Of a DNA stretch of 64,000 bases, positions 5,694 to 16,437 are shown one piece after another (position 1 is the first letter of the stretch; every line of letters starts with the position of its first letter). The notes beneath the pieces were generated by a model, which worked only from the letters and a program-made list of their open reading frames with translations, made no database searches and was not told where the DNA came from. The DNA comes from Bacillus sp. FSL H8-0547 (GTDB taxonomy: Bacteria > Bacillota > Bacilli > Bacillales > Bacillaceae): assembly GCA_038002745.1 (NCBI GenBank), contig JBBODD010000001.1:4030001-4094000 (forward strand). Reading direction: 5' to 3'. The position numbers and the translations under genes are program-made.

Positions 5694-5820
5694 TCTTCCT
5701 TCCTGGTATGAATGCTTTTATTATGAGCAGGAAGAGGGAAAAACATTCTTCTGTTAAGCGGAAGCGGCGTTATGCTTGTTTAAAGTTTTCCCATATGAAA
5801 GTTGATTTACCGTTAATACC

Positions 5821-6066
5821 CGTTCCCTTTCGCTCCAGGAACTTGCTTTCCGCGGGGAGGGATGGGAGCCTCCTCGGCCAGCCTGCGGGGTCTCCCATTC
5901 CCTCTTCATCCCGTAGAAAAGCGGAAGCGCCCGTTTTGCTCCGGCAGTCAGATAAGAAATCACCCGAAAAGTCCGGTTTTGACTTTTTGGGGGATTTTGT
6001 TCTGACAGAGGAGTTGGGCGCTGCAGCTGGACAAGGAGTCAAGTTCCATCCGCTGCAGTCCACTGG
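5821..6066. repeat. GC-rich palindromic dispersed repeat, split by another repeat
   Basis: The left part runs from CGTTCCCTTTCGCTCCAGG through CTTTCCGCGGGG to about 5913; the right part, AGGAGTCAAGTTCC...GCTGCAGTCCACTGG, covers about 6034-6066. GGAACTTG (5838-5845) is complementary to CAAGTTCC (6040-6047), and GGGATGGGAG pairs with CTCCCATTCCC within the left part. I recall very similar repeats (CTTTCCGCGGG..., CCTGCGGGGTCTC...) in many Bacillaceae genomes; that is memory, not a search. The two parts make one palindrome only if the element at 5915-6033 is removed. Confidence 0.7.
5915..6033. repeat. Long-hairpin dispersed element, copy C (nested)
   Basis: About 119 bp, bounded by AGAAAAGCGGAAGCGCC and GGCGCTGCAGCTGGACA. 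Three stacked stems can form: GCGCCC...GCTCC with GGAG..GGGCGC; GTCAGATAAGAAATC with GATTTTGTTCTGAC; and AAAAGTC-CGGTTTT-GACTTTT at the tip. It is closely similar to copy B at 16269-16389, differing mostly in paired positions. It codes for nothing recognisable. Confidence 0.8.
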
Positions 6067-16145: not shown

Positions 16146-16268
16146 ACCAGAAAAGCGGAATCGCCTTGCTCAGCTCCGAAGGACAGAAAAGGATCCGATG
16201 AAAAAAGCCGGTTTTGCTTTTTACATCGGAGCCGTTCTGGCCGAGGAGCTAGGCGATGAAGCTGGACA
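16146..16268. repeat. Long-hairpin dispersed element, copy A
   Basis: About 123 bp, bounded by CCAGAAAAGCGGAATCGCC and GGCGATGAAGCTGGACA. Stems: CCAG with CTGG at the base; TCGCC..AGCTCC with GGAGCT.GGCGA; GGACAGAA..GGATCCGATG with CATCGGA.CCGTTCTGGCC; and AAAAAGC..GCTTTTT at the tip. The next copy follows with no gap. Confidence 0.82.
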
Positions 16269-16389
16269 CCAGAAAAGCGGAATCGCTCGTTTAGCTCCGG
16301 GAGTCAGATAAGAATCCGGATGAAAAGTCCGGGTTTGACTTTTTAGCCGGATTTGTTCTGACAGAGGAGTTGAGCGATGGAGCTGGACA
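16269..16389. repeat. Long-hairpin dispersed element, copy B
   Basis: About 121 bp with the same ends as copy A. Stems: ATCGCTC..AGCTCC with GGAGTTGAGCGAT; GTCAGATAAGAATCCGG with CCGGATTTGTTCTGAC; AAAAGTC with GACTTTT at the tip. Against copies A and C the stem bases differ in pairs, which supports a maintained fold. Confidence 0.82.
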
Positions 16390-16437
16390 ATACGAAAAGC
16401 GGAATCACGCTTTTTGGCACTTTTAAGCCAAAAAGCA
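16390..16437. repeat. Shortened third element next to the pnp terminator
   Basis: It begins with the shared end GAAAAGCGGAATCACG and then goes straight into GCTTTTTGGC-loop-GCCAAAAAGC, a 10-bp stem. It looks like an element reduced to its outer end and a tip hairpin. Confidence 0.55.

Follow-up and report, generated by a model that had tools for sequence, protein, structure and literature searches.

Integron attC sites are folded in a strand-specific manner and stand in head-to-tail arrays of unlike units. The ends of IS200/IS605 elements form strand-specific hairpins, use a short 5' target and are oriented with replication; insertion of the IS608 type puts the folded strand in the lagging-strand template. 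REP sequences are described in the accessible part of PMC3733652 as intergenic palindromes of 20-40 bp that carry GTAG or CGTC at one of their ends, are partly clustered and are possibly moved in trans. In the Bacillus cereus group the repeats bcr1-bcr18 are intergenic and dispersed, some of them MITE-like and some with conserved secondary structure (PMC3446304, accessible part). Bacillaceae-1 RNA (Rfam RF01690) of Bacillales is listed as a structured sRNA present in many copies (PMC2864571, accessible part).

The repeat analyzed here resembles other interspersed structured repeats, so that its kind is known and its form is unusual. By analogy it is close to integron attC sites, being a strand-specific folded site with unlike units placed head to tail, but its arrays carry no cassette genes; it also shares with IS200/IS605 ends the strand-specific hairpin, the short 5' target and the orientation with replication. 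It fails the tested defining features of REP elements with RAYT, of classical MITEs and of Bacillaceae-1. Like REP/BIME it is intergenic, partly clustered and possibly moved in trans (for REP, according to the accessible part of the source), whereas its unit is 117 nt long and ends in GAAAAGCGG and GCTGGAC rather than in GTAG or CGTC. Unlike a MITE it has no long terminal inverted repeats, and its outer helix is merely 3 bp (columns 5-7 with 117-119). Compared by description alone, bcr1-bcr18 are likewise intergenic dispersed repeats, some of them structured, whereas the accessible part of PMC3446304 makes no mention of unlike units arrayed head to tail. No published description of the repeat was recognized in a search lying mostly outside subscription journals, which included the accessible parts of PMC2267715 and PMC8208703.

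The window is a 64,000-nt stretch of DNA, and its source genome (G000) is taken as belonging to Metabacillus, M. indicus being the one named source of hits to the repeat pattern. The initial annotation had described two head-to-tail elements of ~120 bp and a third copy elsewhere, sharing one nested rod with matched changes in the stems. The three units were found at these places, all on the + strand (Table 1); each refolds into the identical nested rod, more stable on the + than on the - strand, and the matched stem changes are present in the sequences. None of 200 shuffles folded as well as the window copies on the six strands tried, some flank included. Pairwise identity was 74% for A-B, 67% for A-C and 83% for B-C, and the left-end pattern matched three times in the window against 0.01 expected. 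The ORFs flanking the A-B array, presumably ylxY and pnp as the initial annotation called them, are both on the - strand, and the + strand of the element is therefore antisense to both. Unit C is embedded in a longer repeated composite (class C). An Rfam scan of the window returned no family at its threshold.

Table 1. Repeat units and associated features in the window
Feature	Position	Strand	Basis
Unit A (118 nt)	16150-16267	+	Model R1, 117.1 bits; fold -54.9 on +, -49.7 on - kcal/mol
Spacer of 4 bases at the A/B model boundaries	16268-16271	+	Sequence
Unit B (117 nt)	16272-16388	+	Model R1, 130.3 bits; fold -53.2 on +, -40.3 on - kcal/mol
Partial unit consisting of the left end, last in the array after B	16394-16406	+	Sequence, 13 bases GAAAAGCGGAATC
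Unit C (117 nt), class C single	5916-6032	+	Model R1, 129.3 bits; fold -56.9 on +, -44.8 on - kcal/mol
Class C composite, left module	5820-5915 (start approximate)	+	15 class C copies aligned
Class C composite, right module	6033-6066	+	15 class C copies aligned

Further copies, on which the initial annotation had made its reading depend, are plentiful. A covariance model built from 37 copies found at least 150 in the source genome, the best 150 being 149 on the chromosome and one on a second contig; the 149 listed chromosomal copies fall in 79 places, none of mixed orientation, with a spacing of mostly 122-123 nt. A rescan of the window and 72 fetched stretches yielded 274 matches to the model with an E value of 0.01 or less, the best 150 of which constitute set A3. 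The 171 matches of at least 33.7 bits were kept, and the 103 weaker ones, many of them opposite-strand echoes, were dropped. These 171 units form 84 arrays, of which 45 are singles and 39 contain 2-7 units head to tail. Simple rules based on the first base and the right flank divided them into class T, which comprises singles and arrays; class S, 14 copies opening with CAAAAGCG and mostly followed by a conserved right module; and class C, 15 copies sharing a right module, 14 of which, including window unit C, also share the left module. Matches to the model occurred in 33 of the 40 genomes searched, the source genome included, with all seven genomes of its own genus positive and none of the five genomes of genus g6. 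Genomes of distant families carry arrays of units near 120-125 nt, and the left end was mostly identical in those read.

The fold was evaluated in 142 distinct copies. Pairing was retained in 95.5% of cells, and changes on both sides were seen at 24 of the 36 pairs. Covariation supports the fold, as it would in a functional structured RNA, and was strong, as the initial annotation had anticipated: double-change cells numbered 593 against 173 in shuffles and at most 80 with a slid partner, and the covariation score was 0.365, compared with 0.160 after shuffling and no more than 0.094 after sliding, values that are no formal test because the copies are related, a relatedness that the slide control retains. 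Mismatches were of unequal type, with 344 G.U against 21 A.C and 302 G.A against six C.U, in a pair set that was predicted on the + strand, which favors G.U somewhat, and that includes four pairs picked by eye. Since an excess of G.U and G.A would read as A.C and C.T on the other strand, one strand, and not a cruciform, is kept foldable; selection on a cruciform is accordingly disfavored by the ratio of G.U to A.C. In the source genome the + strand folded better in 166 of the 167 units of at least 112 nt (four of the 171 were too short), and it was also the better strand in all 13 units of other genera folded on both strands. Maintenance of a single-strand structure is thus well supported by covariation, by the excess of G.U over A.C and by the better folding of the + strand, in agreement with the maintained structure that had been claimed for the locus.

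In our view the hairpins probably belong to a mobile repeat of ~117 nt that is non-coding and retains, on its + strand (GAAAAGCGG...GCTGGAC), the capacity to fold into a long rod. A fold kept on one strand could also belong to a functional RNA family, in which the + strand is transcribed, as part of a 3' untranslated region or from its own promoter, and the rod acts at the RNA level, for instance in RNA stability or protein binding. This alternative, which we hold to be possible though doubtful, has in its favor that G.U is the majority state at three stem pairs (85, 96 and 80 of 142 copies), which suits RNA better than DNA. Against it, the left gene, identified like the other neighboring genes with a simple ORF finder, lies on the opposite strand in 49 of the 83 scored arrays, and the excess of G.U over A.C is similar there (223:11) and where the left gene is on the strand of the element (140:11).

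The left end of the arrays is sharp and the sequence preceding it is biased. Among 68 class T and S arrays, A occupies position -1 in 55 and position -4 in 42, and G is scarce at -3 to -1 (10/204; 2/45 near stop codons and 8/159 elsewhere). A + strand ORF of at least 100 aa ends no more than 400 nt upstream of 31 arrays, according to a simple ORF finder rather than gene calls, and 15 of these 31 arrays begin between -1 and +4 nt relative to the stop codon, with a distance of exactly 3 nt in nine; the same count mirrored to the right end gave 0/37. Such a position behind + strand stop codons also favors the functional RNA family. The right end is ragged: of 54 class T arrays, 37 are closed by a partial unit that matches over 7 to 63 nt. 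The idea that units enter pre-existing AAAAGCGGA...TCCGCTTTT hairpins was rejected, given that the genome has just six such places, two of which lie at the end of an array.

The orientation of the arrays follows replication. On the chromosome, 76 of 83 arrays agree with a model in which orientation switches at two points, 1.77 and 3.96 Mb, which match the GC-skew switches at 1.74 and 3.96 Mb. A dnaA match lies at 1.80 Mb, beside one of the orientation switches, and the folded strand would therefore be the leading-strand template. The bias is common to class C, where 13 of 15 copies are oriented with replication, to class S and to class T singles and arrays. Among the matches listed for other genomes, it was found in three congeners (17/18, 14/15 and 28/29), was absent from G032 (20/30) and was not significant in G007 (16/19), G021 (13/15) and G036 (7/7), and it is therefore not universal. 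While orientation tracks replication, arrays with both neighboring genes on one strand are antisense to them in 24 cases and sense in 12, which speaks against the functional RNA family, as does the variation of sites and unit numbers between species.

A strand-specific hairpin that has no internal gene, has a short preferred sequence 5' to its left end and is oriented with replication could indicate a REP-like or IS200/IS605-like element moved on single-stranded DNA by a Y1 (HUH) transposase, and Y1_Tnp (PF01797) is present in 26 of 40 genomes. On the other hand, the source genome has no Y1_Tnp match, which sets its repeat apart from both REP/BIME with RAYT and IS200/IS605, and the same holds for G001, G002, G005 and G006, each of these five genomes having at least 92 scored copies. 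Moreover, the 117-nt unit lacks GTAG and CGTC ends, and its folded strand would serve as template for the leading strand, the reverse of the situation in IS608. We regard movement by a Y1 transposase as quite improbable. Retrotransposition by a resident reverse transcriptase was discarded because G000, G001, G003 and G004 have no RVT_1 match, as was rolling-circle movement of the IS91 type, Y2_Tnp having no match in the source genome and being present in 3/40 genomes overall. With Y1, RVT_1 and Y2 all giving no match in the source genome, these candidates are not resident there in recognizable form. The plasmid and phage collections searched gave no match to the repeat, and no unit was present in 24 viral stretches that have 16 bases in common with its left end, so that no plasmid, phage or viral vehicle was found in these sets.

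Comparison with congeners revealed sites without units. In M. indicus, which is 96-97% identical nearby, the presumed ylxY-pnp interval contains only a left-end remnant of about 18 nt, and in five other congeners it is an empty, short and unlike spacer. At another locus (L116), M. indicus is empty directly after the stop codon where the source genome has a first array, and has two units against five in a second array; four other congeners compared have no units at either place. This locus offered the single clean empty site that was compared for a target-site duplication, with a 5-base likeness only. Among 20 M. indicus stretches picked from among the matches listed, 17 hold arrays at places shared with arrays of the source genome. 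The unit number differs in 12 of the 17 comparable pairs, which exclude one pair interrupted by a contig end, and the order of units is rotated in some. Movement is therefore slow relative to turnover inside arrays.

Shared places with changed unit numbers and rotated order would also be expected without any present mobility, if ancestral arrays were reshuffled by unequal recombination and lost, and if orientation reflected survival, the better-folding strand being less stable in the lagging-strand template; the two strands do differ in fold stability. However, the five more distant congeners have no trace of the repeat in the ylxY-pnp interval, the class C copies, 15 in number, resemble one another and 13 of them are already oriented, the orientation bias is common to all classes, and the closest relatives of units are mostly in other arrays. 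We therefore judge the loss of all mobility very improbable. On average, neighboring units differ at 27.5 positions and random pairs from different arrays at 26.5, and the closest relative of 106 array units was in another array for 68, in the same array for 37 and tied for one. Arrays thus appear to have been put together from unlike units and reshuffled afterwards; construction solely by local duplication is unsupported by these figures, and the 37 units with their closest relative in their own array indicate that local duplication occurs too. An alternation of unit types was considered and had weak support (P 0.10 for unlike neighbors, 0.035 for like next-but-one units). Rightmost units were more diverged than leftmost ones in 26 arrays against 12, with two ties (p 0.004), a count that includes two weak units added back below 33.7 bits; this is as if arrays grew at the left, and decay of the exposed end would fit too.

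The mobile repeat remains our preferred reading. From sequence comparison the repeats look mobile, and of the two options left by the initial annotation, the mobile hairpin is supported by the sites empty in relatives, the dispersed close relatives and the target preference. We infer single-strand movement and a trans-acting enzyme: units would spread as a folded single strand, RNA or single-stranded DNA, that an enzyme acting in trans handles and inserts on the right-hand side of a target that is short, rich in A and poor in G, and in many cases a stop codon. New units may join existing arrays, which would gain and lose units by recombination between repeats, and the compensatory changes would result from selection for the fold of the + strand at a step of movement or maintenance. 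If this is true, many intergenic repeats of Metabacillus and its relatives form one structured mobile family, within which an Rfam sRNA family with no assigned role also occurs, and the mobile repeat calls for an as yet unrecognized mobilizing enzyme; the many natural variants could be used to test whether selection acts on the fold in RNA or in single-stranded DNA. A wider proposal, to which we give little credence, is that Bacillales possess an array-building system in which gene-less folded strands of ~120 nt are inserted at a short target and added in trans to head-to-tail arrays, with Bacillaceae-1-like motifs as loop modules.

RF01690 matched in 20 of the 40 genomes, with no match over the gathering score in the window or the source genome. 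A same-strand unit lies within about 200 nt in 11 of the 30 loci fetched with Bacillaceae-1, two pairs of which overlap. Like the repeat, Bacillaceae-1 is a structured, many-copy element of Bacillales (as listed in the accessible part of its source), and in the loci read it sits inside or beside rods; it differs in that its 67-nt model has no match to the unit and in that its range includes genus g6, which gave no match to the rod. In a few loci of other genera, read by eye, Bacillaceae-1 interrupts rods at an internal loop (L217, L239, L221 and L237), and in a few loci it lies near the rod tip (L228 and L237) or abuts the rod (L190). The presence of an Rfam sRNA in such rods favors the functional RNA family, as does a unit located by Rfam between 23S and 5S rRNA in genome G036 (L050). 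In the same genome, L050 and L189 have a unit 3' of one and the same 23S-like end, and L180 has a score equal to theirs.

Some further features of the repeats were observed. In the class C composite (window 5820-6066 and other copies) the left module contains a second hairpin whose arms seemingly change together, and one class C unit (L113:2501) has the right module without the left one. The class C copy at G000:C1:1802942-1803058 (L084) lies about 0.9 kb from the dnaA match. The class S right module (for example in L064, L071 and L086) carries TTATCCACA in some copies, which we take to be the DnaA-box consensus, and variants of it in others. The unit at L002:1877-1993 looks like a mosaic, with left and right arms of different types and a mismatched outer stem. 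Other short tandem repeat families, with periods of ~55-60 nt estimated roughly by eye, lie directly 3' of the arrays at L062, L070, L096 and L107.
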